Below, piece by piece: positions 32,472-61,235 of a DNA stretch of 64,000 nucleotides. Below the pieces are notes generated by a model that was not told the DNA's origin, ran no database searches, and saw nothing but the letters and a program-made list of their open reading frames with translations. Source of the stretch: Pomacea canaliculata (Eukaryota; Mollusca; Gastropoda; Architaenioglossa; Ampullariidae); assembly GCF_003073045.1 (NCBI RefSeq), contig NC_037598.1, forward strand, positions 10,037,543 through 10,101,542, given 5' to 3'. Each line of letters opens with the position of its first letter. Position 1 is the stretch's first letter. Position numbers and translations under genes: made by a program.

Positions 32472-35400
32472 TCAGTCATCCACACAGGGAAGCCAGAATG
32501 CCTATAAGAGAAAGTTGAAAAATAAAATTGTGAATCCTTGAATATTTTACAGATATTTTAGAGGTAGAGTCAAGAAAAGAATGGAAAAAATGAGATCATG
32601 TTCACATGCATACACACACATTAATGACCGCATTGTTTTATGCAGTGCCTTACCCAACCAAAGATACACTCACAGTGCTTTACAAAAACAACACATAATT
32701 CATAACCATACTTTTAGGCACGCACTCATTAATTCCTGGCACAGACAAAGTAATTTTAAATTCATACAGCAAGAGGAAGGAAAAGTACTTACCATATTTG
32801 TACATGCTGAAGCCATCATCATATATTTGGGATTAAACTGTAGGTTCTGAATGGGTCCAGGGTGATCACTCTGCAGTATAGCAATCTTGGCACCTGTTTC
32901 TGTGCTCCAGCAGTGAACTTTGCCATCTGTCGATCCTGAAATTGTAGGTCAAAATTACATCACAAAGGGTGATTGGTCAAAAGCGGGGATGGAATTGGTG
33001 TTTTACCACGAGCCAGCAACTAAGGATATATCATGGCAAACCAGTCAGCCCTGTAAACCTCAGACCAAACACACCATCTCCATCTCAAATTTCAGTTGTT
33101 GCCATCAGGCATCCTCCTTCGGAGGTTCCCATGTATGTGGGAGAAGGTGTAGGCATGTGTGTATGTTGAATGTCTTGGCATGTTTGCCCATTATGTTGTG
33201 TGCATAATATATAAGCTCATATTATGTGGTTGGTTTTGTGAGCAAAAGAAAAATTTGTCTTGGACTTCCTTAGACAGACAATAAGGTTTAATTTGATTCG
33301 AAACAAATCAATCAGGGTCAGGATGAACACTGGGTCTCGTATAAACTGATCAAAACAACAAAATTAAACTTAACATTGTAGATCGATAACAAAAGACAAG
33401 TAAAATATTATAGCACCTGTAAAACAAAAAGAATGCCCCAATCCTTCAGGCATATATGAAAATAGCAGCTGTTGAAAGCAATTGCATAGATATTGCTCTG
33501 ACATTGCTGAAAGTAAGCTACGCTTACAGTTATTTCCTAATTTTTAGTGCATGGCTGATAGCAGTTGTAGTATACACAATGACACTGCCATTCTATGGAG
33601 CACTCTGTAGGAGAAAGAATTTTTAAGTACTTTTTTTTCAGAAGCCAAGGAACATCCAAAGTGCAGGCATGTTTAATAATAAAAGCAGCATTTCAACCTT
33701 TTTTTCCACAGCTGCCAATGTCATGTATATCAATTACCTAACATTCAGAAGCCTATCCTCAAATTATAACAATTTATAATCATAACTTAAATGAGATGGA
33801 ACTACAACTCTTTCATGAGAAAAGAGCTACAAATTCAAAAGATGAATAAACACCAGAAATGAGTGCAGTATGTTGCTTTATAGTCATATAGCAGTGATAT
33901 AAATTACACCTAGATACAGCTTAAAAAAATCCCGGTGATTTAATGCTTCTTTACTATCGAAGAAGGTCTGTTCAAAGATTGTTCCAGAATTAGTCAGATA
34001 TAACTTTCCCCAAAGATTTGGCTAAAGCATTAGTAATTCAGTTTGAGTCTGCTTTCATAATGTTCAGATTTCTCAAAGTAATTTTCGAGAGCATTTTATA
34101 TATCTTTAATTGGTTCAAGGATATAAAAAGTCTTCTGTTATGAAAACTATTACTTGATGTATGCTTGAGGATGATGTGAAGACTGTCCAATGAAAGCCTA
34201 TTACATCCACAGCAAACAGCTATAGCAAGTGGTAGAACATTTGAGTAGAATAGTCCAACACTCCTGATCAAGACTTTGATTACAGACACAAAATCCATAG
34301 TTTGCAAACAGCTGCATTTTAGACATTGATTTATAGAGTATATATATTTTGCCAATATCTATTAATATCTAAACCCTAAACCATTTAGTATGGTCTTCAT
34401 GGTTTAAACACGTAATTTTGCTAACATTCTACAGAATGAAAGATACAGTGCCGCATAAAGATGAATGTTAGTATTTAAATGCAAAACCTCTCACCTCCAA
34501 ACACAAACTGTGAATCAGGCGTGAAAGATGCTTCAAGTGGAATACCTCTATGATTCTGAAAACCCTGTTAACAGTTTGAACCAAATATTTACATGCAATT
34601 TATGTCATTAACATGTTAGCTTGTGTGTGTGTGTGTTTTCCATGCTCAGTTCAAAAGATCAGACAGCATGATTTTCACCTATAAAATGCATGCCAATATT
34701 TGTTGCCCAAAACACTGAGCAGCAAGAAGTCAACCTTTGTTTCTGGCAAAAAGTTGACATTTTCAAGTTTTATTTCTATATAGAGCCAGTTAAACTCATT
34801 AATACCAGTTTCTGCATGTTAATAAGTATTTTTGTAATAAATTTGTAAATATTTTGTAATAAATGGGGACTTACAGTCAATATGGATAAAACAAAAATAA
34901 TAGCTTTAAAAATGGTGGATTTATTAAAGATTGTGAAAAATGGTACTATGCTGGAAAGAAGATTACTGTAGAACCCAGCTATAAATATTTAGGCGCTACA
35001 TTCACGTCTACACTTAAATGGGTCCAATGTACTGAAAGTTTATCTGGAAAGGCATTAAAAGCCTTTGCAGGAGTCAAGAAAATGTATTTTAGACTAAAGA
35101 ACCTTCCAACAGACATAATCTTTAAAATATTTGACACAGGTACCCAAGACAATGTTACAACATGTTATGTTTACTAGATAAGGCAGGCAGATCCAATGTG
35201 TGGGAATGGCCGCCAGTTGGTAATCTCCCCTTATTCATCACCACTATAAAAGAAAGATTCAAGGATTGTTCTCTCCAAAAATGGCATGATTCAGTATCTT
35301 CTTCAGATTACTGCGATTACCATCCAGATGACATATATAAACCAGATATTATGATGTGAACACAGACGGGTCCTGCGTTTGCTGAGAATTGTTTACCCAG

Positions 35401-38346
35401 TTTCTGCATGTAATAAGTATTTTTTTATATTTTATATCTCTATCAAAGAATTTGCTCTCTGATCATATGTGTATAGTATGAAAAGCTTGTGCGAAAATGT
35501 TTCTTTTTACCTGAGCATTCCTCCACTATTTGATATTTGATAAAACAACAACAAAGGAAAAAGAAGTCCATCTAATGTTACACTTTTTTATGGTGTTGAC
35601 TTTGCTTGCTGTCACATTCAACATTTATAAAAAGTCACACTGCTCAATGTAATTAGTGTAAGAGCGGTAATGGGCTGGCTTAATGCACAGTCCTACACTA
35701 TTGCTAGTTTAATTTTTCTTTTTTTAAAGGCTGATTCGACAATTATAATATAGAATGAATATACAATACGGTACCACAAATGTCTGCAGAGGAGTCCCGT
35801 GAAAAGCATCAATTAGACGAATAACTGAGCCATTAGTAGATATCAGAATAAGCTTGCCATCTGGGCTGAACTTCAGTCCTGTCCAATCACATTCTTTATC
35901 TTGTGGCAGTTTGAATGTTGCAAATGGACCCTGATGGGCAAGGAAAGACATTTAACAAACCTTAGAAATTTTCACAGAACATCCATACTTTCGCCTTAGT
36001 TTTGAAAAATGTGTTAAGAGCAATGAGCTTATATTTACTCTTTTTAACAAAAGGAATATGCAGTGTTTCAGCAATCATACAACCACAAAATAGATTATCA
36101 ATGGGAAACATTTGATGTACTAATTATGCCATACTGTAAGGCTGATCTAAATAAAATGAGACCTATAGGTAATACCTTATCAAAAGACCTGAGATCATAA
36201 AGCTTGACACTTTCTGAGTTGACACCAGCACCAAATATTAGTCCCTCCGGGTCAAATGCTGCAACTGGTCTTCCTGTCAGATGCATCAGACCCTGGCAAG
36301 CACAAAGTACATATCTTAAAATAAATATGTAACATCAACAGTTCAAAGATATTTCTTCATTTGTTCAAAAGATAATTAAACAGATGAATATGTATCACTT
36401 CATGGAGTGATCAAATGTCACTTCCTGGGATTGTCAAAGCAGATGAGATATAAGTGACATTTTTAATATGTGTGTGTGTGTCTTTCTCTCTCACACACAC
36501 ACACATAAACCCTGCTAGATCTCAAAGTTGAAAACCTACAACTTAGTCACCTGACAATTTTGTGAGCGCAGATCCCACAATCGAATTGTTTTATCCATAG
36601 ATCCTGAGATGAAAGTGTCGTCCGTTGGAGACATGCATAATGTGACAACTCTGTACCACACAAAAATGGATTGTAATATTTATATCACTTTGCATATTAC
36701 ATGTAAAACTTGTTACATTGAAACATCTTTCATTTCTTATAAATAAGCCAGACTCCTAACTCCCTCCTCTTTAAACTCTAAGCAGAAGTGCATGTATGTA
36801 TTATATATGTGCATGTGTGTGTATATATATATCTATTTGCACATACCAACTATTTATACATTTGGGAGAAGATGAAAAGCCAAAAGAACTCTCTAAAAAA
36901 CATTTTTAACATATAATTAAGCTAACTTTTATACAGTTTGGAAGAAATTATATGCTTCTACTATCCAAACAAATAAGAATGCCAGGAAAATAAGAAGAAT
37001 GAGCTAAAGCATTTACTTACTTCTTTGTATGGCCAGGAAAGTATCTAATGTATTTGTTGTCATGGAGAGATAAGTATCTGATTGTATCTGGAAGTTGACC
37101 ATTAAAGATCATTAAAGATTCTGCTTCAAGAATGTTTAATATTAGTAAATGGCAAAAGGTTAAAACTGAAATTAAACGACTGATTGTAAACCATTAAGAT
37201 ATCTCAACCTGCACATGTAAAACTAGGTCCTCTATTTAAAAATAAATCAGCAAACACAGAAATAATAAATATAAAGCGCAATATCTCAGCCAAAGCTAAA
37301 AAATCTCAATCAAAATATTTACCAGATAAATAGCCTACTAATGCTAGTTTGCTGTTAGTAACCTGATTAATAATAATAAAAAAAGGTATAGGCTTTCTTT
37401 TGTAACCAAGATAATTACTATTGTCATCAAATGATTAATGACAAATTATTCTATCAAACAGAAACGTTTTTGTTTTACCATCAACTTTTGTTGAGCAGTG
37501 AAGAGCAGTATTGACAGCATGTGTATAACGAATCAAGTCCACACCATATTTTTTGCTGTTTAGAGTTCGCTTTGGCCTTAGGTAGAAAGACAAATAATAA
37601 ACATTATTTAAAAAATTTTGCATTTCTTCTTTTTAACAAGTCCTATCTTTAGGAAATCTTTAATCACTACTTTGCTATGAAGATAAAATTGGAAGTTAAA
37701 TACATTTTCAAAGATAAAATGATCTAAATTTATCTATATTTACATGAAAACCGAGTAATCAAGGTTTGTACATATACATCCTTGTGTGTGTGTGTGAGAG
37801 GGATAAATAAAACTGTTGGTATGCAACATTCTTCCCTTTAACGCATTTATCTATAAAACAAACACAAGGCATAATATTGAAACATATTTTGGTGGATTTA
37901 TGGTGCATTTCTCAAAATAGGTTCAAAGCCTTGTACTGAAATAAATTTAAAAAGCAAGGTAAAACACATAACTATACGACTATTGACTCAAACATAACTC
38001 ACATAAATAGAGACAACAGATCTACAGAAACACACTAACGCAGTATCATGAACAAAATCTCGCGTCCCTTGCAGTCAAATTAAGATTTTACTTTTTAAAT
38101 TTAGAGAACATACCTATTATTATAATCAACTTGATAGGTGGCTATCACACCTAAGCTAATTGATTTTTATTGATAGAATACTCACGTTCCGCTCAAACAA
38201 TCATAAATGACAATAGAATCATCGTCACTGCTTGATATCAAAGTGTCCCCGTTTGCTGAAAAGTCAATACTACTAACTCTGTCCGCATTTTCTCTAAATA
38301 TCTTAGCAACCCGAAACCCTCTAACAGTCTCGTCAGTCAGCTTCAT
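32472..38346 (-). CDS. WDR82: WDR82, WD-repeat subunit of SET1/COMPASS and PNUTS-PP1
   Basis: Nine coding exons, high to low: 38346-38186, 37576-37479, 37087-37021, 36650-36551, 36292-36176, 35930-35775, 34564-34495, 32935-32793, 32501-32472 (942 nt, 313 aa, which is the length I recall for human WDR82). The protein begins [20 protein letters not shown] and ends [11 protein letters not shown]. Recognisable blocks: [85 protein letters not shown] and [13 protein letters not shown]. Seven WD repeats form a propeller that recruits SET1 H3K4 methyltransferases to initiating Pol II and acts in transcription termination. The last exon codes for only nine residues. Introns contain a LINE fragment, a SINE fragment and a (TG)n/(CA)n palindrome. 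No let-7-like hairpin was seen, although human WDR82 hosts let-7g. Confidence 0.97.
32996..33080 (-). mobile_element. SINE 3' fragment
   Basis: The plus strand GTGTTTTACCACGAGCCAGC, then AACTAAGGATATATCATGGC and AGTCAGCCCTGTAAAC, is the inverted 3' half of the SINE family found at 13510-13690 and 52478-52652. The tRNA-like head is absent. In the WDR82 intron before exon 8. Confidence 0.6.
34834..35396 (+). mobile_element. LINE reverse-transcriptase fragment flanked by direct repeats
   Basis: Plus-strand frames read [37 protein letters not shown], then [27 protein letters not shown] and [11 protein letters not shown]. This is the C-terminal half of an I/Jockey-like reverse transcriptase, broken by several frame changes. 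The near-identical sequence CCAGTTTCTGCATG(T)TAATAAG, extending into ATTTTT, occurs at 34805-34833 and again at 35397-35424, so the insert is bounded by a roughly 28-bp direct repeat. The element lacks both its 5' end and its 3' end. In a WDR82 intron, opposite to the gene. Confidence 0.7.
36469..36505. repeat. (TG)n-(CT)n-(CA)n inverted microsatellite
   Basis: TG repeats (36469-36480), a CT-rich loop and CA repeats (about 36492-36505) form a perfect potential hairpin in a WDR82 intron. Confidence 0.75.
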
Positions 38347-38672: not shown

Positions 38673-41600
38673 ATGTTGTAAGTATTTTTCGATTCGATCT
38701 TTGGTACTTTTTATAGGTTTTTGTTTTAGGCTTCTCATTATTTTAAGTATCAGCATCGCTTTTAGAGAAATCTATAAATCGATAGCTGTCTTCACATGTC
38801 AGTGCGATCGCAAAGGACGAAAAGTGAGCGCATAACTGCGTGTGCTTGTGTGTGTGATCTGCAACAAATGTTGGTCACATCAATAATAACATACGCTTGT
38901 TATTAACACTTACTCCGTACCCGCGAGTGTTTAAATTCTACTTGGCTTCGTCGGAAGAATATCTCATGCTGATGATGTCGTTGTATACGTCCATGGTTGT
39001 ATCCTATGCATTTGCACCCCATAACCCACCATTCTTCTCTCTCTCTCGGAAAAATTATTAACTGTTAATATTATTTATTTAGATTTTGTGCATGTCACTG
39101 AGGGTATGAGCTACATGACTAACACCGGAGAATGTCACCGCTGGGATGGCTTAATACATTCCTCTGACCCTGCGACTTTGTTTCAGAGCGAAAAGCTTGA
39201 GAAATGCTGCTGTACAAGCCAGTGACCTGGCACAACAGCTGTATCAGAAAAATCCAAAAATTACCTCTAAGGTCAGATCTTTTGATATAGCATCAAAGGT
39301 CTTGCGCCAAAAGTGGCAGATTTGTCACTCTTATTGTTGTGCACAGGGTTTGCACACTGCTCAGCAAACGATTTCTAAGAGACAGTTTTTTACGACGGTA
39401 TGCAGCGGTGTTGCTCACAGCAATAGCAGACGAAACCATATGTTTGAGTTGCCGTTGGAATCACTTCATGCAAAAGACATTTACAATGTGGCTGTCAGTG
39501 CCGTGGAACCCCAACATATGATTCGGAAAGCAGTGCAGTATGATGCAGACAAAGCCATCTTGACTGTACAGGAGAAGAAATATGAACTGAATCATAATGT
39601 GTATGTGGTTGGCTTTGGCAAGGCTGTTCTAGGCATGGGTAGGGCAGTGGAAGATATATTAGGTGAACACATTGTGAAAGGCATACTCAGCATCCCCACA
39701 GGACAAAGAGATATTTTGAGACAGGAGAAAAAATGGTGAGTTATTTATGTTTTAGATTGTTTTGTTGGAGTGCATTATTGATTGTCTGTCTTACATATTA
39801 TCTAATAATAATCATGGTCATTAGGGTATTGAGTGATGTATCCTAGCCAAAGTTACGCAGAGTGCAATTTGGAAAGAAAGCAAAATAGATTAAAGTACAT
39901 TATTATAAATATCATTTAATATGATAGAAAGATTAGGCTTGCACTATTGTAATCTTTCACTTGCTATTGGTTGTTTGACATCCCTAATATGGAGTGGTAC
40001 TTAATAAATGAAAGGCAAAGAGGGACTAACAAAACGTTTGTGCTTCAAAGTCATTGGTTTTCTTTAATGGTATTCAATGTAATGAATAGTTTTTGCAGAA
40101 TCTGTTTTAAATGATTTATGTGAAACAGGGATCTCCTACTACAACCAAATACAAAAATCCTGGTGTTTGAAGGAGGCAAGAACAATTTGCCAGATGAAGA
40201 TTCCTTTAAAGCTTCAAGAGCTATTGAAGAACTTGTTCGTGGAAGAAAAAATACAGACCTGATAATTGTTCTCGTTTCTGGTAGGAATTCATGCACTCTC
40301 TCTCTCACACACTCTCTCTCACTCAATCCACTGACAATTTCAAGTTACAAGGTTAAAAGAGAAGGGGCAGAATATGTGGTCCCTTGATAAGAACATGCAT
40401 AAAATTTACTAAGCATAGTGACCCACTTATAGATGTTATCTGTTGAGCATTTCTATTAACATAGAAATAAAGTCTTTAAAGTTTGTAATGGGGCAGATAA
40501 ATTAAAGGGTGCATGGTAACTGTTTTATGTTTATTCTACGTGTGTGCATGGGCATTATTCAAACCCACAGTGCCAGTAAACAGTGTGGTTTTTTTTTTTT
40601 TTTACTAGTAAGATTTTATATTAAGATTTAGAAAAGTGCAGACATCTTACTCATGAGATGTCTGCTTCTTAGTATACTTTTTTCCAAAGTTTTCCTTTAT
40701 TTAAAAGAAGCGTGTAATGGTGATTGAATCCTTACCCTAATGCCTTCAGGTGGTGGTTCCTTCTTGATACCTTCTCCACGGCCCCCTATTTCACTGGAGG
40801 ATTTGATAGTCATGACAAAAGAGCTAGAAAATAATGGTGCATCTGCCAAAGATATCAACATTGTGAGGAAAAATGTTGAGTTTTTGAAAAGTGGGGGTCT
40901 TGTAACAGCTGCTCGCCCTGCAAAGGTGAAATTAAAAGTGTTTGCTGAAAACAAATTTTTACTTTGATGCAAAGCTTAAGTTACTTCACATACCTTTAGG
41001 TGCATGACAAAAGATATACATGTATAATATTTCTGTAAAATTATCATCATCTGTAGAAGTAAGGTGTGTAGAGTTTAAAAAAAAATTCTCTTATACAAAT
41101 TAACTTTTATGGGATTTGATGTGGCTAGATTTGATAATCATATATAAATTTGTAGTTCTTGGTTGCAGATTCTAATATTTTTCTTTCTGTTTCATAGCTT
41201 GTGTCTTTCATCATCTCTGATATCATTGGTGATCCTCTGGGAATGATTTCCTCTGGTCCCACTGTTTATGATCAAGTTACAAGCCACCAGTGTTTTGAGA
41301 TATTTAACAGGCTGAATGTAATCAGCAAGATACCACAAACAATCCTTGCGCACCTGCAGCAGCAGGTTACCAATGAGATAACCAAAGCCATGCTGATGAA
41401 AAGAAAACCATTGTCAAGCTCTTCAATCAGCACAAAAGATCTAGAAGACCCTCAAGTATCAGATGCTGCCCGGATTCAAAATGTTATTGTGGGCAGTAAC
41501 AGAATTGCCTGTCAGGCTGCTGAGAGGCATGCTCAGCATCTGGGCTACCTGCCATTTATCCTTTCTACAGAACTCGAAGGAGAAGCAAGGAGGATAGGTG

Positions 41601-42175
41601 CCATGTTTGGAAAGTTAGGAATCTATACATTAATGTGCTTCAACCGCAGGCTGTGGAATCGTGCTTATTCCCCCTTTGTCCATCTGGAGTTGGAAATTGT
41701 CAAGGAAGGCATAAATAAGTCTCAGTTAAATGCGATTGCAAACCTTGTAGAGCGAGCTCAGAATCTTGGGAAGAGCATCGTCATAATAGCAGGAGGAGAG
41801 TCGGTTGTCAATGTCGTCGGCACAGGAAAGGGAGGACAAAATCAGGAGTTGGCGCTGGCTGCAGCTATAGAGCTGCACAAATCCTACAACCTCATAGACC
41901 CACGCTCACAGGCTGACATCACATTGCTGAGTTCTGACACAGATGGCGAGGATGGACCCTGGTGCCAAGCAGCAGGTGCTGTCATTGATCAGAACTTTGT
42001 GAGGAATGCAGAAGCAGAAGGTGCATCTTGTTTGGATTCTTTAGAAAACAATGACTCTAACACTTTGCTGAGCATGGTGAATGGTGGTGCACACCTCGTT
42101 GTGACACACATGACTGGAACAAAGGTCATGGACATTCAGGTTTTGATCGTGTGCAATCCTGCTCATACAAAGTGA
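38673..42175 (+). CDS. GLYCTK: D-glycerate 2-kinase, copy 1 (intron-poor, putative mitochondrial leader)
   Basis: Proposed exons: 38673-38677, 39187-39735, 40129-40280, 40750-40925, 41198-42175 (1860 nt, 619 aa). GLYCTK phosphorylates D-glycerate to 2-phosphoglycerate in serine and fructose catabolism. Signatures: [11 protein letters not shown] (about 143-153, with the family-conserved Lys), VFEGGKNNLPD, VSGGGSFLIPSP, LKSGGLVTAARPAK, FIISDIIGDPLGMISSGPTV, VIVGSNRIACQAA, IIAGGESVVN and DTDGEDGP. The 5-nt first exon (ATGTT then GTAAGT) is inferred from phase and gives an Arg/Ala/Ser/Gln-rich leader (MLAKSLRNAAVQASDLAQQL) that suits mitochondrial import. The family motif GGRNQE reads GGQNQE (Gln codon 41837-41839). 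The last exon of 978 nt matches five separate exons of copy 2. Longer than human GLYCTK (about 523 aa), mainly at the N-terminus. Confidence 0.9.
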
Positions 42176-42866
42176 CAGTTTTTTAATTTCATTGTTTGTG
42201 ACATGTACAAGCTGTCTTTTATTGAACACTGAAAAAATAATTATTTTAGAACATAAACTGATACTTTAAAAAAATTGAGAAAATTACAAAGTTGCTGTTT
42301 GAGTAGTTGGATACAGTAAATTGTAAAAAAAAATGGATAAAATATTAGATTCTTATAGCATTAAATTCTAGTTGTGACCTTCCAATCATTTTATGGGACT
42401 TAATTAATAGCTTATTCTGAACACGTGCTTATGACGATGTACTAGAAGAATTTTGTGTTTATTCATATATTTTATATACTAACAATGTTTATTCATATTA
42501 CTGTATACACTATCAACATCTGATAATTCATTTTCATGTTACTTTATATACTGACACCATTTTACAGTATTTATTGACATTAAATTACATACTAACAGAA
42601 TCTCACAATGTTTATTGATATTAATTCATATACAATATATATAACTTCAGATAGGAACATAGTCAAAGCCTCAGTTCATCTGTACTGAATGAGTTAAAGA
42701 ATTTCACAGTGCATATTGAAATTACAGTACTATGACAATGACTTTAAACGAATATACTCAAAGAATCTTGCAACAGTTTTTATGTGATATTAGTCTGTGA
42801 AGTGTTGTGCATGTTTGTATACTTCAAGAACTAAATGGTTCTGAAACTGACAACTATGTGCATCAC

Positions 42867-42872
42867 AATAAA
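42867..42872 (+). terminator. candidate poly(A) signal of GLYCTK copy 1
   Basis: AATAAA about 690 bases past the stop; another AATAAA lies at 43618-43623. Motif evidence only. Confidence 0.3.
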
Positions 42873-43371
42873 TTAAAGACTTTGCTGTATTGTCTTGAGT
42901 GTAATAACAGAAATGAGTAAGATGTTTTTTCATACAATGTACTGCCATTGTCATGTGTATGATGACAACAATAACAATTGATTGAGATTATGCACATGCT
43001 CACATACTTGTTCTAGCAGTTAATGTTGTGCTTGTTTTTATAAAATGTTGGTATACAGTTGTTAAAATGTTAATGGATTGTAAATTTTTCCGTAAGATTT
43101 TTTTGTGTAAACTGTGATTTAAAGAGTTTATTTTGACTTCCACACATTGCACAAAACTAATGACTTCCGTATATAGAATCAAAATATTGACATATCTATT
43201 TTTAAATTGATATATATATATATATATATACAGCTATTTATATATTTTTCATTATTTACAAATGTTAGAGATATTTTAAGGCAATCAAAGTATGTGTGTG
43301 TACACTAATGAATGCTGTATGTGTCATAAGATATAGGCTTAGACCATATCTCTAGAAATGCCAAAGATATT

Positions 43372-43530
43372 GACTAGTGTGAGATATATTTGGTTTTGTG
43401 GCCCTCGTTGCTTAGCAAACAGAATCAATACTATTTTGGATATCATAGCCCTGACTAGTGTGATATATATTTGGTTTTGTGGCCTCGTTGCATAGCAAAC
43501 GGAATCAATACTATTTTGGATATCATAGCA
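43372..43530. repeat. two tandem copies of an 81-bp unit
   Basis: GACTAGTGTGAGATATATTT begins at 43372 and its copy GACTAGTGTGATATATATTT at 43453; both run through TTGGTTTTGTGGCC to ACTATTTTGGATATCATAGC with few differences. A recent local duplication. Confidence 0.9.
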
Positions 43531-44371
43531 CTTTGAAATGATAAATCTTTTATTCTATTGTCAATAGTGTTTTTTAGTTTTGCTTGGAGTGATATTCTTG
43601 ACTAAGATAACTGGATCAATAAAAGTTTCTTTTCTAGATTTTATGTTGTCAAGTTTGCTGAAATGTGCATGTGCAGTAGAACACAAAAGATGAATGCCAT
43701 CAATGGACTATGATTATAAGAATGTAAGTTATCTAGTGTAAATATCCGCAATGTATGCAACTGAGAACACATTGCAAGACTGTTCTTTCAACCTACCCGG
43801 GGGTCCACGGTGTCCCTTGAAACAAGGGGTCTTTGGGACAAAGAGTTGGTAGGGAGGAGGGTTAGTAGTGACATAAAACGAACAGTAATACTGGCCCATG
43901 AAATCAGTTGTCTCCCCTCTCACACGTCGGGATTACAACTGATGCTGGTTGTTGACTTTTTGACTTGGTCAGTCTGTAGCTGTTTGTGTTTCCTCTCTTT
44001 CACGTTTCTTCTGTCATTCCGGCTTGTAACTGTCAATCATCAGTCAGTGGTCTAATCTCAATAATCGTTCTTGTTTGCAGCCGGTGCTGTCTTCAAGCTC
44101 CGAAGACCAGCGTTCAGCGCTTTCTCAATCAAACCACAGGGTCAGCTGATGTCACAAAGTGCAGCAGGTCAGATTTATACAGACCTTTCTCACACCTGTC
44201 TACACCCAGTCGTGTGTTGCGACTCAACCTATCAACGAAGCAATCTGTCTGCATTGCCCATCGTCAACCCCCCCACAACCGAAGTTATCTCACCCCGCAG
44301 AACGGATTTGTCCCTTCTTAACGCAGCGTCTTCCACAAGTGAGCGTTCAGTCCGGGTTCAGCTGGTCAAGG

Positions 44372-47300
44372 ATGGCGTCGACTTCCACCAGCACCACGAA
44401 ACCAGAGGCCAGCGACCTTAGAAGTCGCGACCTGCAGACGCGGGTTCAGTTGCGAGAAGTATTTCTGACGGCCGTCAGGTCTGGAATGCCCCAGCAGATG
44501 CTGGAAAAGGTAATGATTGATTCAGTCATTATTGTGTTCTTCAATTAATTATTTTGCGCTTGACCATATGAGCCTTACATTTTCTGGAAAAGGGAAGAAT
44601 GTATACAGAATGCGCATATTTTCTACTCAGATCAAGCAGATACTGCACTGCAACTATCACAGAAAATATATGTATATATTTTTGACCAATGTGGCATGAG
44701 GAACAAGTGTGACCACGAAACACATCATACATTTTTGTTTCTTTTGCAATACCTGACAGGTGCTGAAGTACGACCCCAGCACACGTACTCTGACAGTGGA
44801 GGGTCGCGAGTACCAAGTGAACCGGAACGTCTTCGTCGTCGGCTTCGGCAAAGCTGTGCTGGGTATGGCGCGGGTGATGGACGAAGTCCTGGGAGACCAC
44901 ATTATCAGGGGCATCGTCAGCATTCCCACCGGCTCCAGAGCTGACTTGGTGGCCAACGGACACAGGTAATAGTGGATCCATCATTTGCTGTACCATTGGC
45001 ATATCACGGAAGACAGCGAGTTAACGCGCGCGTGTGTGGGTACAAATATGAATATGTAATTTTTTTGTGTGTGTGACAGAGAGAGAGAGAGTCGCCGCAG
45101 AACTTAAGATTTAGTCATACTGCGACATCGGTTTTATACATTCCTTTCTTTTCTTTTTTTTGTCCACCGTACTTTTGTTATTCATATCCGATGCAGGTTA
45201 GAATTCGCGCCGGCAGGTTGTGTGTGTAAAGAAGAGAAAGAGACTCATATTTTTGTTCCAAACAGTTCCAAGATTGTTCAGATGAAGGGGTAATCGAGTA
45301 TTTGTGACATATTCGAGATCAAACGTGCTATAATAAATTATTGAAGTCACTACCCCTTTCTGTTCTCCCGCTTGCACCATCTGCAATTTGATGCAAGTTG
45401 ACGAGAGTTGAGTTTTGTCCTTGTCCCACAGCGACATGCTGCTGTCGCCAAACAGCAAGATCAGGGTGCGGGAAGGTGCCAACCACAATTTACCAGACGA
45501 GCTAGCATTCCAGGCAGCTAGGGACATTCATCAGCTGGTGTCCAACCTCACTGAGAAGGACATTGTCTTCGTCCTCATCTCAGGTACGTCAGCCACTAGA
45601 GAGAGGAGGAAGAGAAAGAGAAAAATAGAGATAACTGAACTTCGGTGAGAGTTGAGCCTGCTTTAATCGCACCCATCTCTGTTTTAAAGCCGTCATCCAA
45701 AGCCCGATTTACCCAGATCACATGTTAATTTTCGCATGCAACAAGAGCTTGTCTTGTCTTTTTATTTGAAATCTGAATCTGTGAAAAATATTTATTCAAA
45801 CTTCACGTGAGCTAGGTTTAGGGGAATTTAATGAAAGCAAGTAAATCTCTCGCCCAGGTGGCGGTTCTGCATTGTTACCATACCCGGTCGAGCCTCTGAC
45901 CCTGGATGACCTGCTGCAGATCACCCGCGTGCTGTTCAGTCACGGCGCGTCCATCTCTGACGTCAACACTGTGCGCGTGCATCTCGAGCTCCTGAAGGGA
46001 GGGGGCCTTGCCAGGGAGGCTAAGCCGGCGCAAGTGAGATCTTCTGAACCTGCTTCTTTAGCATTCGAATCTATAGTATCTATAGTATCTATAGTATAGA
46101 ATCTACTAAATCTTTTTTTCACGAAGATACGTTTATTGGTGATTGCTATGTTTCTTTCAGGTTGTATCATTCATCATCTCTGACGTCATTGGCGACTCCC
46201 TGGAGATGATTGCGTCAGGCCCGACGGTGCGCCAGGTGAGGAGCCCGCACCGCTGTTTGGAGATCATCGACAGACTCAACGCGCGAGAGGCCCTCCCCAA
46301 GGTGGTTGTGGAAGTGCTGGAGGCTAAGAAGAGCCAGATCGTGGCGCAGGCAGGCCTGTCCTGGAATACTAGGAGCGAGACATCAAGTGCAGGTCAGCTA
46401 CAGCCTCGGCGCGCACTCAAGCACGCTCACATTCTCTCTCTCTCTCTCTCTCAGACACACACTCTGGCATGCCTGCGCGTTCATTCTGTTTGTCTCTCTA
46501 TCTCCCACTCTCCTGGAAAGCTAACTACATCTGTGGAAAACGACAATTTTAGTTTTAGATGGATTGACATTGTGTATACTTATACCTCTAACTGCAGGAA
46601 CGTGCTTGAGTGAGTGGAGGAATAAAAAGATTCTCTCTGTAAAAGAACTAGTATACGAAAAAAAAAAAAGAGTGCAATAAATCCTGGAAGAAAGGTGAAT
46701 AGATATATAGGTTGATGTTTATGATAGTGGTGGGGTACAAAAATGGATTGAACGCATGGAACATCCGTTTGGTACTTTCTTTTGACATTTCCGCCAGGGG
46801 GAATCATTGAAGACGACAGGTCAGAGTGGGACAGAGTTCAGAACGTCCTGGTGGGCACAAACGCTATCGCTTGTCAAGCAGCTGCACAGCGCGCTCAAGA
46901 GTTAGGGTTCGTACCCTGCATCCTCTCCACTGAGCTCAGTGGGGAGGCGAAGGAGGTAATTTACCTGTTTTTAGGGTTCATCATCAACTTATTGCAACGT
47001 GCGTATAATTTTGATTGCGAAAGGGAGCTGTGAGATTTACTTTGTGTACAGCAAGAGAGAAGAAAGAATTACGAGCACGAAGTTATGATTTTGCCATCCA
47101 CTAAAAGATAGAGCAGATATAAGTAAATCATGGTCATGTGCGTCTTTGCTTTGTATAAACCACTACAAAATGTAATTAAACGTGTAAGATGATGTATTTT
47201 AACTCGCTCAGGTAGGCCTGCTGTTTGCCAAGCTGGCCCAATACATCGTGGCTTGCTTCTGCCTCCGGCTTTCCCAAACCGCCAACTCCGAGGTAGTGCA

Positions 47301-48523
47301 GTTAGAGATGGAAATCATCAGACTGGGTATTTCCAAGAACAAGCTGAACGAGGCTAGTCCTTATATTTATTACATTAATTATATTAATTAATCGTCACAT
47401 TATTATATTTTCAATTTCACAGTTTCTTGAACATATCTACTTTAATGACCAGACGCTTTGTTGTCTCCAAATGAACGAGAAGGGGAGAAAGGGAAACAAC
47501 TGTTAATGCCGTGTCAAACCTTGCAGGTAGCAGACAGTGTGAGGGTCGCTAGTAACCACTCCAAGCCGCTGTGCGTGGTGGCCGGAGGAGAGACGACAGT
47601 CAACCTCCGAGGCAAGGGCAAAGGGGGTCGCAACCAAGAGATGGCGCTGTCAGCAGGCTTGCAGCTGCAGCAGTGCTTCCAGACTTTCAAGAGCCGCCGA
47701 GAGCTGACAGAGGTTTTATTTCTCAGCGCAGGTGTGCCTTTTACTTTCACTTGGCCATTTAAAACTTGATTCATTGACGTTGGTAGCTGTTTTGGAGAAA
47801 AGGAGGAGTTGGAAGAGAATGACGGATGAGGATGTTGTTGCTGTTGTTGACTATGACGGCGAATGATGATTTTGACAAAAATGATGAAGAGGTGGGGATG
47901 AATGGATAAAGACATTGTTAGACGGGATATTGATAAAACCAGAGCCATAGACTGTAAGTAGAGATGGTCTTAACTGGTTAGAGACGGAGAGCGAAAGTAG
48001 TGTTCACACGCATTCAAAACACACGCGCGCGCACGTTTTGTTAGAATTTTTTTTTTCAATAAAATTTCTTTTGAAAAAAAACTGTCTATTGGGCAAACCA
48101 ACTGCTGCGCATGCGTAAAAGTAAAGGGATCATTTCCGTTCACATTGGCATTCCTAATCATCTCCGGACTCCCTAGAGGCAAAAGAAGTACAGAATACCA
48201 ACCCTGTTTATATCTTCCCTGTTTCTGCTCATACGTCACATGTATTGTTAATGTTACTCATCAAGGCTTTCATTCCTTCTCCAGGAACAGACGGACAGGA
48301 CGGACCCACGAACGCCGCTGGGGCGCTGGTAGACGAGAACTTCATGCTGGACGCCGTCAGCCAGGGCCTCGATCCCGTCGCAAGCCTGCAGAACAACGAC
48401 TCGCACACACTGTGGTCTCGCTTCGCTGGCGGTCGCGACCTGCTGGTCACAGGGCTCACCGGCACCAACGTCATGGACATACAGCTGCTCTTGGTGCAGA
48501 ATAATCAAGCGACGGGCTTTTGA
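44372..48523 (+). CDS. GLYCTK: D-glycerate 2-kinase, copy 2 (intron-rich)
   Basis: Nine exons: 44372-44509, 44760-44965, 45432-45583, 45858-46033, 46161-46392, 46798-46955, 47212-47352, 47527-47731, 48285-48523 (1647 nt, 548 aa). It has the same fold markers as copy 1: [97 protein letters not shown] (Arg codon 47629-47631), [11 protein letters not shown] and GTNVMDIQ. Exons 3 and 4 have exactly the same lengths as in copy 1 (152 and 176 nt). Intron 7 appears to use a GC-AG donor. The start is the first in-frame ATG; the N-terminus ([14 protein letters not shown]) does not resemble a mitochondrial leader, although an upstream coding exon cannot be excluded. Exons are visibly more GC-rich than in copy 1. 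Confidence 0.93.
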
Positions 48524-53382: not shown

Positions 53383-54548
53383 ATGGACGTTGCTGTGAAG
53401 TTTTGGCGTCTGTCGCCGCTGCTGCTGCTGTTGCTGGCTTTGAGTGAATTTTCCGTGGTTTCAGCTGTGAGCACTGGTAAGCTGCCATTTCGTGTCTCTG
53501 TAACATTTCGATCTTACTTGAAATTAAACAGATGCATTGAAGTTTTCTAATTTTTTTAAATCTGCATGTTTGATCTGTTGTTTAATTCTTGTACAGAGAC
53601 AGAAATTCCGGATATATACCCAGATTTGGCTATCCATGCTTAGAAACTGGCAGATGAAAGACTGGTGACTCGACTATCTCTGCTTACAAAAAATATTCTT
53701 AGCGTCAATTCCTACAATAACCATAAAATCCTTGTTTTGTGGGTTAATTTTTAATAACTTGCAAGGAACGATTCGTTGGGGCAGAAGCTAGGTAATATGT
53801 GTAAGTATATGTATATATGTGTGAGTTACGGTATGTGCAGATTGCAGCAGCACTGTCATGGACCTGGTTGTGGTAGCTGACTCCTCAACCAGCATCAAGC
53901 GAGCCAATTACAAATTAATGAAGGAGTTTCTGGCAAAAGTTGTGTCCGGCCTTCCCACAGATGACCTCCATGTCCGTATGGCAATAGTGCGCTTTTCGAA
54001 TGAAGTCGACATCATCCTCAATCTGACTCAGTCTGAGACGAACGACAACTTGACAAAAATACTGACCAGCATGGCTTTTGTAGGAGGTATGAGGATTTCA
54101 ATGTTTAGGTTTGAGGGAGAGAGAGAGAATGTTCTTTTGTATACGAACTATGACCACAAGGCGATGAAGCAATTAAAAAAAATGTATGCTTGTTTAAAGT
54201 CACCTATGACAAGCAGAATGCTATCTCTCCCCTGCGCAGGTGGCACCAACACCTATACAGCACTGCAGACGGTCAGAGAACAGATACTCATTCCAGCTAA
54301 TGGCCGCAGACCGGAAGTGCCTGCAGTGGTGCTGGTGGTCACAGACGGCGAGTCATGGAACGTCAATCGCACAAAATCAGAAGCTTCTCTACTGAAGAAT
54401 CTGGACGTCAACATCCTGGCTCTGGGCATAGGGAGCAATGTTTCTTTGAACGAGCTCAATGGCATCTCCAGTGGCTTTGTGCAGAACATCAGCGATTTCG
54501 ACAGCCTCGATGGCATTGTGGATAGCCTCAGGGGCCAACTGTGCAAAA
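53383..54548 (+). CDS. secreted VWA-domain protein (first VWA unit; 3' end not found)
   Basis: Exons 53383-53476, 53841-54086 and 54240-54548. Exon 1 is a signal peptide (MDVAVKFWRLSPLLLLLLAL). Exons 2-3 form one von Willebrand factor A domain, most like those of matrilins and collagen VI. The metal-ion-dependent adhesion site is intact: VVVADSSTSI (DxSxS), GGTNTYTAL (Thr) and VVTDGES (Asp). The domain ends GQLCK at a phase-1 donor (GTGAGT at 54549), so the coding sequence must continue. Nothing convincing follows before the next signal-peptide exon. The open phase fits the acceptor at 56855, so this unit and the next could be one gene with two VWA domains. Extracellular adhesion or matrix binding is the family role; the ligand is unknown. 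Confidence 0.8.
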
Positions 54549-56472
54549 GTGAGTCAAAGAAAATACACAAATGGAGATGCGTTAGTGTGTGTGTATGCGT
54601 GTCGGTTTGTCCATTTGTTAATCAGTTCGACAATCTGGGACTGCTTTGGTCTCACCGTGTACTGTCTGGTGCTATCTTGTGTCATCCGGTATAGTTCGGA
54701 AATGGGTCTGACGAGGGCTTCAGTTATTTTTGTGTAGTGGCGTTTCCCTCGTCTCGGTTCGACTAAATACTTTAAGGTTGAGGACATATTCTATGATATG
54801 TCAGATGTAAACGAGATGCTTTAGGGGAAAGAGAGGAGCGCGCTGTGACGATTCAGTTTATCTACGTGACTACAGTTGACATCCGTCTGGTGTAATAGAT
54901 GGACAGATATCACAGAAGACTAGCGGGCGCACGCACAGACCCACGCACACACATAAAAGCACGCATTTTATTCAGCTTCTCGTGTCAGTTGAGATAGTTA
55001 CGTTTCAAAGGAGGAATCGGATCGCTACGCTACAAAGCCGCTAAAAACTTTCAAGAAAACAAACAAACAAACAAACAAAAACACCCCAATGGATTGTCCA
55101 AGTCATATACTCGCACCAAATATCTTTAAGAGATATTGCATTGTATATATAAAACTCTTATTGGGAGTAGCATGCACATTGTCACAGCTTTGGGTCAAAA
55201 GTAAATGACAAATTTGCTTTTTAGTTAACGGAATCGAATTTTATCTGTCACGCCCCACTGCATACTGACATTCCCTATGCTGACTGATCAAGGGGAGACC
55301 ACCTATTCACGTCCGTGGGTAGACAACTCCGGGAACAGCTTTACTAACATGTGGGTAGAGCCCTCTCTCGAATTTAGAAAGAAAAGATCTGCTGCAGAAT
55401 ACAAACATGGACTAAGGCAAGCAGGCAAACAAGAATTAAAACATTCGCCAAGCCTGATAAATAACGGAAACTTAAAGGACTAGTAGGGTGCAGATTTTTA
55501 TTCTGATCACTGAATAAATCTCATTGCAAGATACTGTTTCCCAAATCAGGGTGAATACAGGCGTCTCGGCATATACGACATCACCCTGTACAGAAAGAGG
55601 TAAAATTGTGACGTCACGTTTGTACACAGATACACCATAATTATGTGTCCCGCTGAGACTTTCAAACATATCCATGTCCTTGTACCCAGTATATCTAATC
55701 CTTACCTCTTTGTCCTTTAAAATGTTGTTTTTGTATAAACGATTTATAAAATATGATGATCTATATTTTTTTCGTTCTTTTCCTCTTCTACAAATACACT
55801 TATCTCGCGGTGCACAGGCACGCGATGTCTGTATCCATGGACGGTTACTCTTGTGAACCGCTGCTGTATGCAAACAGAAAAAAACAAACACCAAAAACGG
55901 AACATAATTTTGCTTCTTGTTTGGCTAACTCAGTAATGAAAGAAAAATCAACTAAGATTTTCTCTCATTACAGTTTTCTCTCGCTTTAAAATGTATTAAA
56001 GATGATCATAAACCTTCAAGAATTCAATGAATATTGACTTCCTTCAATCACAACAAAATACCAAAACCTCAGTGATTCATAATATGAGTAATCAATAAAC
56101 ATAATATTCTCAAGTATTTTGATCAAACAATGTTGTGTAAAATAAAGAAAAGTATTGGAGACATTTTTCAACTGGCTTAACGATTATAAATGCAAATATT
56201 ACCAATATTGAACTTGCTGATAGGGAGCTCAATATTTTGTAGTAATCTCGTAAAGTGAAAAGTTACCGCCCAATGTTTCCGCTGCTTAGTGACTGCAGGA
56301 TGTCACCCACGACCAGTGCGCACAGAGAGAAAGGAAGTCCGTGAGTTTTGCACACGCATATCTATATTTAATAGAAACATCAGTAGTCAGGCGCCTGCAG
56401 GCTATTTAAGTCCCGGGAGTGAAAAGTGGACGCCAGACCAGTCAGTGTGTTGCTTATCTCGCGGCACGGAAA
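54549..56472. other. stretch between the two VWA units
   Basis: No coding exon recognised. Contains an (AAAC)n run near 55060-55079, CA-rich patches near 54930 and, at its right end, a promoter-like segment. It is either intergenic or a long intron, depending on whether the VWA units are one gene. Confidence 0.4.
56402..56472 (+). promoter_or_regulatory. candidate TATA promoter of the second VWA unit
   Basis: CTATTTAA at 56402-56409 lies about 70 bp upstream of the ATG at 56473, followed by a short GC-rich leader. This spacing fits a TATA box with a transcription start near 56435. Confidence 0.4.
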
Positions 56473-59400
56473 ATGTTTTTCATTGTGTTGATGTTGACTT
56501 CGTTGTTGACCTATAAACCGGTCGCCGGAGAAACAAGTGAGTTAAAGACTAGCAAACACAGATTAATTTAATTTAAAAATATGATTTTTGTTCCAGGAAT
56601 CAAACATTGCATGCAGCATGTCTGTGGCTTATTTGGAAAGCTGTTCTTTTTTTCTTGCTGGCTAGGGATTTTGCTAGCCACGGAGCGGATGACGGGAACT
56701 GATCTTGACACAGTATGAATGTGAGAAAAAGTCACTGGAGCCAACTGTGTAGGAGTTGGTGCCTGAAGTGGAGACGGGGCCACCACGATTAGAGCAGTTT
56801 TCGTATAATTTATTGGCGGTTCCTTGATATCATGATACAAATTTATTTTTTCAGCCGCGGTGGAAAGCATCAGTGTCAGAACTACCTTGACCTCTGAAAG
56901 TGGATCGTCACCAGCGTTGGACACTGCAGTAACTTTCCCGATCGCTGATGATACATCGTCATCTGGACTGGACCCTACACCAGGACCCACGATCGCTGAT
57001 GATACATCTTCACCTGCGCTGGACCCTACACCAGCCCCTACGATCGCCGATGATACATCTTCACCTGCACTGGACCCTACACCAGCCCCCACGATCGCCG
57101 ATGATACATCTTCACCTGCGCTGGACCCTACACCAGGCCCCACGATCGCCGATGATACATCTTCACCTGCGCTGGACCCTACACCAGGCCCCACGATCGC
57201 TGATGATACATCTTCACCTGCGCTGGACTCTACACCAGGACCCACGACCTCTGATAAAACCTCGTCAACCGTGTTGGACTCTACACCTGGCCCTATCACA
57301 GATGATACATCGTCACCTGGACTGGAATCTACACCTGGCCCCACGATCGTTGATGACACATCGTCACCTGCGTTGGACTCTACATTAAATTTCATACCTG
57401 TAACTCCTCATTCTGCTGGCTTAAGCACCTCTGACCTCCGAAGTAAGCATTTACAGATCTTGAAGGCAGACGTCCTTCTTTCTTAAGTTATTTTTTCCTT
57501 TCTTTCTTTTTGCTCTTATTTCTTCTCTTTTTTTTATTTCTATAGTTTTCTTTATTGGCCCTTTATTTTTTCTCCTATTTTCCCTTTCTTTACCTTGTTT
57601 TGATTCACTCTTACTTATCTCTCTTCCATTCTCCCTATTATTCATGTAATCCTTCTATTGATTTCTTTGTTGTACCTAATCATTTTCTTTCCTTGTTCAC
57701 CTCTCTTTATTTTGATTGCTTTAAATTATTTTTTTTCTTTAGTTCCTTTTGTTTCTCCCTTAATTTACTTATTGCTCTATTTTCGTTTCTAAGTCCATTG
57801 AGTTCTGTACAGCAAACAGCCTTTTTCTTTTCTTCATTCCTTGTTTCCTTTCTGTACCCTATTACTCCCGATTCATTTTTTTCTTTCGTTTATTTTTTTT
57901 CCCTGTTTTGAACTTTTCTTTCTTGTTTCAGAACATTTTATAGTTACTTAAGTTCCTGTTGTATTTAATATCTCACACACACACTTATGCGTATACAAAT
58001 GTTTGTATTTATTTCTTTAAAAAATGCTTTTCAATAATCTAATGCTTACTTCACGGATATGTGCTGGCTACGACAGCGGTCACCAAGAAATATACTAAGC
58101 CCCCTCGATGCATACATGGTCGGTAGTTTCAATTACTTGACAACACGTAGGCTGAGTGTAGCGGTGAGCACAGGGCTTGACCTCTGCGCAGCACATGCGT
58201 CACGCCAAGTGGCCGGCACTCGAGCGCCGCGTGCTGGGCGTCCAGTTGCAGCAGCCATCTGTTATCTCGAGGAAGCAAAGCGTATCCGTGGCTGGATCTG
58301 TCACAGCCAGACCTCAGCCATCGCACTCGACCCTGTGGCCCCTAAAGGAGCAGCGCAGCAATATGGGTGCTAGCGAGACAAGTGTTCACTTATCGGAATA
58401 TAAACATGTAAACAGTCAAGGATACGTTGCCCACACGCCACTTTCTGTCTCAAACATCAGATACAAAGATTTATAAGTGCCTATCATCAACCCTTTCGTA
58501 TCTCTTTCTGTTGTACATCTTCTCGCCGAACGGTACACATTATCTAAGTAGGTGTTTAAAGAGCTTAATTACTCAGATCATTCACAGTTAAATAAACGAT
58601 TATATAATTATATTGCTATCTAGCTAAGCGTCACTTGAAAATATAAGTTTGAAGGATTTACAGTAATCCCCAATGTGTTATTGCCAGTCCTGCTGGAGCA
58701 CCACAGAAGGCTATCATGTTGCTGGCGCACCTTAGTTCTGTGGTCTTAGCTTTGTACCGGAAGTCCTGCAGGATGTCATCTGCTTACATGATAACGTGTC
58801 ACAGTCACTCGCGTTCCCACAAACGCCTGGACATTTGTGTTCTTTTCTACTCAAAAACCTCTAGGCTTGTATATATTTAATAATTTTAACCAATTAAAAA
58901 ACACAAAAAATGTTAAAAGATAATTCCCTAGTAAACATACATTAATTAACCCTATCTACTACCTAAGATATATTATTATTACTTATTAAGGATCTCTAAT
59001 TCTAAACACAGTCCTGAGAGAAAGTTCTTTTCTTGAAGTTTAATTAGTTAACAGTTAATTTAAATTGTATCCCCCACTTTCTTGTTCCACTATCTAATAA
59101 AGAATCCCGATTAGTCATTGACAAAGACATTCATCTGTGTATCAGGGTGCTTCGAGCAGCGGGTGGACCTTGTTTTCGTGGTAGATGCCTCCTACAGTGT
59201 GAAAGAGGAGAACTTCGAACGGGCCAAGTCTTTCATCAACAAAATTGTAAGTGGCCTTCCCATTGGCCAGACTGCCGTGCGTGTGGCACTAGTCCGATTT
59301 GACAGAGATGTCTCAATTATCAACCATTTCTTGGACAACCTGCAAGCTGTCACAGACTCAGTGTGGAACATGACATACCCGGATGCTGCTGGTACGAACA

Positions 59401-61235
59401 CCGGTGGAGCACTGAAGGAAGTCAGAGAAAAAGTAATGTACTACTCATTTGCATGTTTGCTATTTTGTGTGATAAATACACAAGAGATAGAAAAGCTTTC
59501 TTAATTAAAGATATTAGAAAAGGGACACGAAGATGTTCCTTACAATTCCTTGTTATTCCAAGGGGCATATAATTGATACTATTTCTAGCAAATTTGTTTT
59601 CACAAAACATTTATTTTTGCATTCCTCCATTTTATTTAAATATTAACGTATAATTTAAATAATTATTTCCATGCATTTGTGTGTGAAAAGATTTAGTAAT
59701 CAATAACTCTGGAAACGACGACTTTTGAAATTTACATTTCATCCTTAACTGAGTGATGTATAAAAATTGTCTCCAGGTTTTTGATGTTCGCAAGGAAGAC
59801 GGCGTGAAGGACATAGTGATCACTATCACCGATGGGGAGAGTGATCAAGTCGATGTGACAGAAGAACAAGCAAGTCTTTTGCGTGACCAAGGGGCACAAC
59901 TTGTCTGGCTGTACATCTACAAAGGAGGGGGGCCGCTAGAGGATGAGAAAAATTTTATGGAGGAACAGGGAGACTCAGTGATCGTGGTCGACCACTTTGA
60001 TAAACTCACAGACGATATTGTTTCAAAGGATGCTTGTGGCTTCTTGTCCAGGTAAAAAAAAAATCAAAAACATTCTTTTTAGTTTTGATGTTCTTTATTT
60101 TTAGTTTTTAGGAGCTAAAACATGTGGTAGAGCTTTTGGATACCCTGAAACACCTTAGGCTTAAGTAATTATTTTTATAGAGGTCTTCTTGGGTACTGTT
60201 CCCTTCTTATTATCTCTCACAAGCCCTGCTTACTTCACCTTTAAAACTCTGTCTTTCTTTCTTTATTCTTACTGTTGTTTGCGTCTTGCACTTAATTGTT
60301 TTTATTATTACAAATTTTTATCATTATTAATTTATTATTACTGTAAAGTTCACATCTAATGTATTCTCAATTTCTTGTCTTGTGCTTAGACCAGACTACA
60401 CCTTCTACAACAACTTCTACCGTACTCACAACGGACATTCAGACTACGAATCCGTCTACAGCAGTCGCTTCAACTGAGGACGACAGTACGACAACAGCTT
60501 CTGTGGACTTCCTGGTCTCGACAACCAGAACAGTCAGTCACAGTGACAGAGCAGCCTTCCATAACAACAGAATCGTCAGTCGTTTCGAGCAGCTGGTCTG
60601 CATCCGCAATAGCAGAATCTCCAACCTCCGACATTTGGTTTCCTGACGCGGAAATGACGTCAGAGGCCAATCTCATAACGTCGCCAACAGAAAAGTTTGA
60701 CCTCCCTGTCACCCACGATGCTGCTGATCTCACGGTCTTGACGTTGTCGACCGTCTTACGTGGGCAGTGGACGACGGCTGTTGCGGATGCCACCCATTCT
60801 ACCACGGAACAAACAAACGAGTCATTGACAGAAGAGCAGGACGACGAGTCTGGTCTCGTTCAAACGTGGACACCGCCCTCGTCTCCGGCAGCTGTGCGCA
60901 TGACTACTTACAGCACCGAGCTGACAACAACATCGCAGACGGCACAGCAGCAGTCGACTACGACAGAAGAGAAAACATCGCCGTCTGCCACGACTCAGGC
61001 TGGCTCCACGTTAGGAGGATTCACATCAGCGACAGAGGAGTCCAGCGAGGGTTTGCGGGAAGGTTCGTTAGTGTCGAACGGGGATAAACCATGGCACCAA
61101 GACTGGCCCTTCATTGTTGGCGTCACAGCTGGCGTTGTTGGCATTGCTGCTTTGAGCACTGGCTTCTTGATTTTTCTCCTTCGACGCAGACGACAAGGAC
61201 ACCATGACATTACCCCAGCATCGGCAGCATCGTGA
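56473..61235 (+). CDS. VWA-domain membrane protein with repeat array and mucin-like stalk
   Basis: Exons: 56473-56536 (signal peptide MFFIVLMLTSLLTYKPVAGE), 56855-57442 (acidic Thr/Ser/Pro-rich repeat array), 59146-59432 and 59777-60051 (one VWA domain), and a last exon from about 60390 to the stop at 61235. The MIDAS is intact: VVDASYSVKEE, AGTNTGGAL and TITDGES. The last exon codes for a Thr/Ser-rich stalk, then a transmembrane helix (WPFIVGVTAGVVGIAALS, through TGFLIFLL) with a short basic tail LRRRRQGHHD. Fit is imperfect in the last exon: the T/S-rich frame at about 60389-60525 differs from both the frame expected after exon 4 and the frame of the transmembrane segment. An acceptor at 60395 keeps one frame open to the stop but makes the first 45 residues Gln/Leu/Arg-rich. 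Product is likely a cell-surface adhesion or matrix receptor. Confidence 0.75.
56941..57393 (+). repeat. nine 51-bp (17-aa) coding tandem repeats
   Basis: Units follow the consensus IADDTSSPALDPTPGPT; the first starts at 56941 and the second at 56992, period 51 bp. The seventh unit is 16 residues and the last three are the most diverged; the middle units are nearly identical in DNA. All three plus frames and one minus frame stay open through it. Confidence 0.95.
57485..57935 (+). other. long pyrimidine-rich tract in an intron
   Basis: About 450 bp dominated by T and C on the plus strand, with runs such as CCTTTCTTTCTTTTTGCTC. It yields a Phe-rich open frame that is not a gene. Lies in the intron between the repeat exon and the VWA exon. 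Confidence 0.6.
58050..58380. other. unexplained GC-rich island in an intron
   Basis: Clearly more GC-rich than its AT-rich surroundings, with several CpG-containing sites (CGAGCGCCGCGTG). Frames are open on both strands; a minus frame reads GRGLAVTDPATDTLCFLEIT. I recognise no family. Could be a fragment of a foreign element or an enhancer. Confidence 0.4.

Follow-up and report, generated by a model that had tools for sequence, protein, structure and literature searches.

Among the known systems closest to the genes considered here is animal GLYCTK, the class II (MOFRL) glycerate 2-kinase, for which descriptions of the human locus give a single gene. In human, GLYCTK1 is built from four coding exons (exons 2 to 5) and is 523 amino acids long, and a variant without exon 4 runs out of frame into a stop at the front of exon 5, leaving a product of 234 amino acids (PMC12137673). 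Exon number and order are alike in human, mouse, and rat (PMC10816255), a source whose own reconstruction of one human transcript has an exon number unlike that of Ensembl. The human gene order is PPM1M, WDR82, GLYCTK, DNAH1 (PMC4143676), and in sheep GLYCTK and WDR82 are listed within one interval (PMC12189700). In contrast to the single human gene, the snail Pomacea canaliculata carries two tandem copies. In a stretch of 64,000 nucleotides (nt) of contig NC_037598.1 (positions 10,037,543 to 10,101,542, hereafter the window), GLYCTK copy 1 (38673-42175, plus strand) and copy 2 (44372-48523, plus strand) neighbour each other head to tail. Five introns of copy 2 are absent from copy 1, and the history that we favour, with moderate confidence, is that copy 2 gained them after an old tandem duplication, copy 1 having kept the ancestral place and three introns. 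No paper was found joining "glycerate kinase" and "Pomacea canaliculata".

Exon-intron structure of the two copies

The exon chains of both copies were rebuilt base by base from the DNA sequence and are predicted models. Their parts are as follows.

38673-38677, plus strand: copy 1 putative exon 1 (ATGTT, 5 nt), donor gtaagt, prediction only
39187-39735, plus strand: copy 1 exon 2, coding for the basic N-terminal extension and the beginning of DUF4147, spanning the place of copy 2 intron 1 unbroken
40129-40280, plus strand: copy 1 exon 3, 152 nt
40750-40925, plus strand: copy 1 exon 4, 176 nt
41198-42175, plus strand: copy 1 last exon, 978 nt including the stop, counterpart of five copy 2 exons
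44372-44509, plus strand: copy 2 coding exon 1 (MASTSTST...)
44510-44759, plus strand: copy 2 intron 1, 250 nt, phase 0, not in copy 1
44760-44965, plus strand: copy 2 exon 2
45432-45583, plus strand: copy 2 exon 3, 152 nt
45858-46033, plus strand: copy 2 exon 4, 176 nt
46161-46392, plus strand: copy 2 exon 5, 232 nt
46393-46797, plus strand: copy 2 intron 5, 405 nt, phase 1, not in copy 1, containing a CT-rich simple repeat
46798-46955, plus strand: copy 2 exon 6, 158 nt
46956-47211, plus strand: copy 2 intron 6, 256 nt, phase 0, not in copy 1
47212-47352, plus strand: copy 2 exon 7, 141 nt
47353-47526, plus strand: copy 2 intron 7, 174 nt, phase 0, GC-AG, not in copy 1
47527-47731, plus strand: copy 2 exon 8, 205 nt
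47732-48284, plus strand: copy 2 intron 8, 553 nt, phase 1, not in copy 1
48285-48523, plus strand: copy 2 exon 9, 239 nt including the stop

The structural difference described in the original prediction was reproduced: the exon chains agree, copy 2 has eight introns, and introns 1, 5, 6, 7, and 8 are without a counterpart in copy 1. The predicted match between the 978-nt last exon of copy 1 and five exons of copy 2 (232+158+141+205+239 = 975 nt, stops included) also held; this exon is a 325-codon open frame aligning with copy 2 along its entire length. So did the three introns proposed to be shared, which are copy 2 introns 2, 3, and 4: they are flanked by exons of equal length (152 and 176 nt), fall in the same alignment columns, and have phases 2, 1, and 0 in both copies. 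The five extra introns of copy 2 have phases 0, 1, 0, 0, and 1, and the exons of copy 1 run through these places, the position corresponding to intron 5 being uncertain by a few codons owing to a poorly conserved linker with small gaps. All five extra sites in copy 2 have the context AG|G, as against none of the five corresponding places in copy 1, a pattern which does not discriminate gain from an old loss.

The frame of copy 1 opens MLAKSLRN... by way of the ATGTT exon and an acceptor at 39186; the 5' intron thereby defined has no counterpart in copy 2 and rests on the predicted 5-nt exon. Intron 7 of copy 2, as modelled, is of the GC-AG kind (GAG|gctagt), the other seven being GT-AG. Copy 1 has a third-position GC content of 0.42 and copy 2 one of 0.72, against an overall GC of 0.38 for the window. 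Searches of the snail's own genome (440,159,624 bases in 24 contigs, the best candidates alone being scored) with PF13660, PF05161, and the last exon of copy 1 revealed no third copy or retrocopy beyond the tandem pair.

Human GLYCTK as an outgroup

The original prediction had made the choice between loss and gain depend on outgroup introns, a comparison which was carried out for human from the literature: the four coding exons (PMC12137673) favour gain in copy 2, which had been offered as the alternative, over the leading reading of loss from copy 1 through a partial complementary DNA (cDNA). Four coding exons imply three coding introns, so that at most three of the eight copy 2 introns can occur in human. 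The 234-residue variant places two of the human introns before residue 234, and therefore at most one near introns 5 to 8. Copy 2 intron 5 corresponds approximately to human residue 297, with introns 6 to 8 lying beyond it, in an alignment with a provisional human protein sequence; hence only the human exon 4/5 border could match one of introns 5 to 8. Introns 2, 3, and 4 correspond to residues 126, 177, and 236 or thereabouts of the same provisional protein (positions estimated from the alignment), a placement which suits the human exon arithmetic, 176 nt not being a multiple of three. The excerpts of PMC9960278, PMC10784340, and PMC13150450 contain nothing on GLYCTK exon positions.

In the favoured history, an ancestral animal GLYCTK with three coding introns would have stood beside WDR82, and an ancient tandem duplication would have doubled it in the ancestry of this snail. 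Copy 1 would have stayed at the ancestral place with its three introns, and copy 2 would later have gained spliceosomal introns 1, 5, 6, 7, and 8 one by one, each at AG|G and with the protein unchanged. Counted on the tree, this amounts to five gains in copy 2 and no losses; gain before the duplication followed by loss from copy 1 costs at least two more events, and ancestral presence has the same five introns lost twice. We infer that the gains fell after the duplication; the exon chains, the position and phase of the shared introns, the five single-copy extra introns, and the age of the pair are direct observations.

Age of the duplication and relationship of the copies

The two copies are identical at 253 of 546 aligned residues (46%), and over 521 core codons their synonymous divergence (dS) is saturated and their non-synonymous divergence (dN) is 0.49; because of this sequence divergence, the duplication is judged to be old and the copies not recent. 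A tree was built from copies 1 and 2, five prokaryotic relatives, and the provisional human GLYCTK protein sequence, in which the two snail copies are sisters with support of 97/92 (97/94 without the mixture model and 96/95 without the two Acidobacteria). As this grouping hinges on one provisional sequence and on a test near its limit, it is treated as a lead. Residues shared by two animal sequences yet absent from the five prokaryotes number 55 for copies 1 and 2, 33 for copy 2 and the provisional human protein, and 16 for copy 1 and the provisional human protein.

When the provisional human protein serves as reference, unique changes number 74 in copy 1 and 39 in copy 2 (p 0.0013). With the five prokaryotes the corresponding counts are 45/44, 40/37, 34/33, 44/30, and 45/32, with no p below 0.13, and each copy matches 61 of the 82 columns invariant in the prokaryotes. 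Faster evolution of copy 1 may thus be taken as a lead only, since it appears with the provisional human protein but not with the five prokaryotes.

Further animal relatives were sought in two sequence collections. One scan of genome_contigs gave five loci, all prokaryotic, and three scans of viral_contigs gave one prokaryotic-looking fragment and two results without a match, so that neither collection yielded an animal relative. At the start of one contig of the viral collection (L014:3-329) lies the tail of a MOFRL-like frame, whose matched part shows 47% identity to copy 2. A plasmid search with the last exon of copy 1 returned 322 records, all below 60% identity and of no use for introns.

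Search for traces of the proposed gains

An origin of the extra introns from introners or transposons was rejected, as none of the five, all of which were searched, belongs to an intron family in the snail's own genome (simple repeats and very frequent words being ignored by the search). Introns 1, 6, 7, and 8 match only themselves, and intron 5 has matches at six further places in the genome, confined to 31-51 bases of the CT-rich stretch. Duplication of exon segments in tandem and double-strand-break repair were likewise discarded, the ends of 12 introns and blastn comparison against both coding sequences giving only short chance words. Comparison of the introns with one another gave only a GA/CT simple-repeat match that links introns 2 and 5 of copy 2 and, within intron 1, a short stretch matching itself in inverted orientation. 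The AG|G context at all five sites is as proto-splice models expect. The mechanism of gain is no longer legible, the pair being old enough for any trace of it to have been erased.

Weighing the alternative histories

Several points weigh against gain in copy 2. The human intron positions are deduced from exon counts and the length of a variant, and the only outgroup is human. The tree depends on the provisional human sequence, and the other two pairings are rejected by the approximately unbiased (AU) test only at p-AU 0.032 and 0.045. The gains have left no signature: intron-end repeats are no more frequent than chance (12 introns, lowest p 0.054), and the introns show neither exon similarity beyond short chance words (both coding sequences) nor an intron family (genome). 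Intron presence goes with AG/G at the site in any case (PMC3096672), so that AG|G is in itself no sign of gain. Finally, if a cDNA tract is scored as a single event, losing the introns in parallel in human and in copy 1 takes about four events, no worse than five gains; parallel loss is nevertheless disfavoured, despite the similar event count, because the loss of an identical set twice would be a coincidence.

The main rival, which we regard as unlikely, holds that the stem lineage had already gained the five introns when the duplication took place, and that copy 1 then lost introns 5 to 8 at once via a partial cDNA and intron 1 separately. This is compatible with the human data and draws support from the contiguity of the absent introns 5 to 8 at the 3' end, from reverse-transcriptase-like frames recognised by eye in the window, and from the intron-poor retrogenes in tandem arrays reported in molluscs (PMC6896357). 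It requires, however, five gains plus at least two losses, and intron 1 must have gone while introns 2 to 4 and the 5' intron stayed: the absences in copy 1 are contiguous for introns 5 to 8 but not for intron 1, which a single 3' cDNA tract leaves unexplained, and ancestral presence is unsupported by human. Nor is the 3' bias, to which the original prediction had appealed, diagnostic of a cDNA. The last 975 of the 1647 coding nt hold four of the five extra introns, a distribution consistent with uniform gain (P = 0.32); when five of eight introns are extra, the last four are all among them with a probability of 4/56 = 0.07. Amino-acid identity in the last exon of copy 1 (0.463) is within the range of the other segments (0.449-0.492), with no step at the exon border. 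Given a non-significant 3' bias and no identity step, no cDNA is needed to explain the pattern. A wider version of loss, in which all eight introns are ancestral to bilaterians and both copy 1 and the vertebrate lineage lost the same five, seems rather improbable to us: intron loss is common in animals, and cDNA can remove several 3' introns together (PMC3443670, PMC3096672), but human has at most three coding introns, and the same five would have to vanish twice while the same three stay.

It is quite improbable that the duplication predates the vertebrate split, with human GLYCTK and copy 1 descending from one paralogue that lost introns (or copy 2 from one that gained them) and vertebrates losing the other. 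The saturated dS and the dN of 0.49 would suit such an age, as would the WDR82 neighbourhood common to copy 1 and the human gene; against these, copies 1 and 2 group together to the exclusion of the provisional human protein (97/92), the pairing of copy 1 with human is rejected at p-AU 0.032, and the shared residues absent from prokaryotes favour the two snail copies (55 against 33 and 16). Errors in the gene models, whereby some copy 2 introns are spliced otherwise or a hidden intron lies in the last exon of copy 1, are the least probable explanation and a very remote one. The exon chains are indeed predicted from DNA, and the GC donor required for intron 7 has an unusual T as its third base. 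On the other side, the exons once joined give products that align across both Pfam domains, retention of any one of the eight copy 2 introns, extra or shared, introduces an in-frame stop, and the last exon of copy 1 stays open over its 325 codons and aligned to copy 2 throughout.

Protein family, active site, and predicted function

The spliced product of each copy matches the DUF4147 and MOFRL profiles along practically their full length, with 237.9 and 117.9 bits for copy 2 and 220.6 and 91.2 bits for copy 1, all above the curated cut-offs of 23 (DUF4147) and 28.3 (MOFRL); by family assignment from sequence, both copies are full-length class II glycerate kinases. A structure search with copy 2 identified 1x3l and 2b8n as solved relatives. 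The presumed active-site residues of TM1585 are Lys47, Asp189, Glu312, Arg325, Asp351, and Asn407 (PMC1079889), and these were mapped through the alignment to the solved relatives, in which chain numbers are 12 higher. Copy 2 keeps all six, as K77, D232, E423, R436, D472, and N531, and is probably a working glycerate 2-kinase. Copy 1 keeps four of the six; by the same alignment and residue assignment (PMC1079889), the two changes are as follows.

41837-41839, plus strand: copy 1 Gln508 (CAA) at the place of TM1585 Arg325
42122-42124, plus strand: copy 1 Lys603 (AAG) at the place of TM1585 Asn407

Because Gln and Lys replace a presumed active-site Arg and Asn, the activity of copy 1 is probably reduced or changed. 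The Pyrococcus relative 1x3l is likewise without the Arg (GGPNQE), hence the changes in copy 1 are no proof of inactivity; they weaken a claim of the same activity, not one of common descent. The first 90 residues of copy 1 contain 13 Lys/Arg against 3 Asp/Glu, compared with 4 against 3 in the first 27 residues of copy 2, and this basic N-terminal extension of copy 1 is possibly a mitochondrial leader, of which copy 2 would have none.

Genomic neighbourhood and other features of the window

One neighbouring gene bears on the place of copy 1.

32700-38345 (approximate), minus strand: WDR82-like WD40 gene, exons seen by eye, head-to-head with copy 1

The start codons of this gene and of copy 1 are about 330 bases apart. 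A rough join of the WD40 gene pieces has as its first-ranked PDB relative the repeat protein 2ymu and as its second S. pombe C824.04 (E 6.5e-43), which we take to belong to the WDR82 family; the WD40 gene itself is presumably WDR82. Since human GLYCTK adjoins WDR82 and the WDR82-like gene sits head-to-head with copy 1, it seems that copy 1 keeps the ancestral place and that copy 2 is the downstream duplicate.

Elsewhere in the window, reverse-transcriptase-like frames of LINE (long interspersed nuclear element) type were noted by eye at 16084-17202 (minus strand), 34890-35177 (plus strand), and 63070-63372 (minus strand), the second of which sits in an intron of the WDR82-like gene. Between copies 1 and 2, a tandem duplication of about 80 bases, 94% alike, lies at 43371-43529. 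Frames at 53825-60055 (plus strand) resemble von Willebrand A domains by eye, with a repetitive Thr/Pro/Asp-rich frame at 56836-57486 in between. No RNA family in the window scored above its gathering score.

Comparison with known systems

A broader account of the locus, which remains tentative and which we consider rather doubtful as a whole, would have copy 2 acquiring five or more introns de novo following tandem duplication, with copy 1, at the ancestral place, gaining none, losing part of the catalytic centre, and taking up a mitochondrial leader. Were such opposite divergence of structure and function true, the locus would let one ask, in a natural setting, whether introns are gained by the copy keeping the old function. 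Gains of introns that are precise are seldom observed in animals; with five differences beside three shared controls, this pair lends itself to a clean tally of gains and losses when molluscan relatives are added. Copy 1, with its changed presumed active site, is in turn open to direct testing as a glycerate-kinase paralogue whose activity may be lost or altered.

The pair resembles animal GLYCTK in the presence of DUF4147 and MOFRL over their whole length, in its 1x3l and 2b8n relatives, and in the six of six presumed active-site residues of copy 2, and departs from it in the Gln and Lys at two of six places and the long basic N-terminal extension of copy 1. Work on molluscan hemocyanin genes, Pomacea canaliculata included, likewise describes gastropod paralogues of one species whose introns differ in number and place, a difference put down to independent, lineage-specific gains (PMC7931591); those introns number in the dozens in a very large repeated gene, whereas the GLYCTK pair differs by five in a small enzyme gene of a single domain pair with an intron-poor sister adjoining. 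Tandem paralogues with unequal introns are also found among the intron-poor nicotinic acetylcholine receptor (nAChR) genes of molluscs, attributed to retroposition and tandem duplication (PMC6896357). Those are mostly intronless retrogenes, unlike GLYCTK copy 1, which is no retrocopy, since it keeps three shared introns and the ancestral neighbour. The paralogues of animal alpha-amylase are similar in their differing intron sets, AG/G at the sites, and want of any mechanism trace, and were widely sampled, in contrast to the two copies available here (PMC3096672). Unequal introns between paralogues are thus already known, and the GLYCTK pair adds a tidy case to them, with three shared introns as internal controls.

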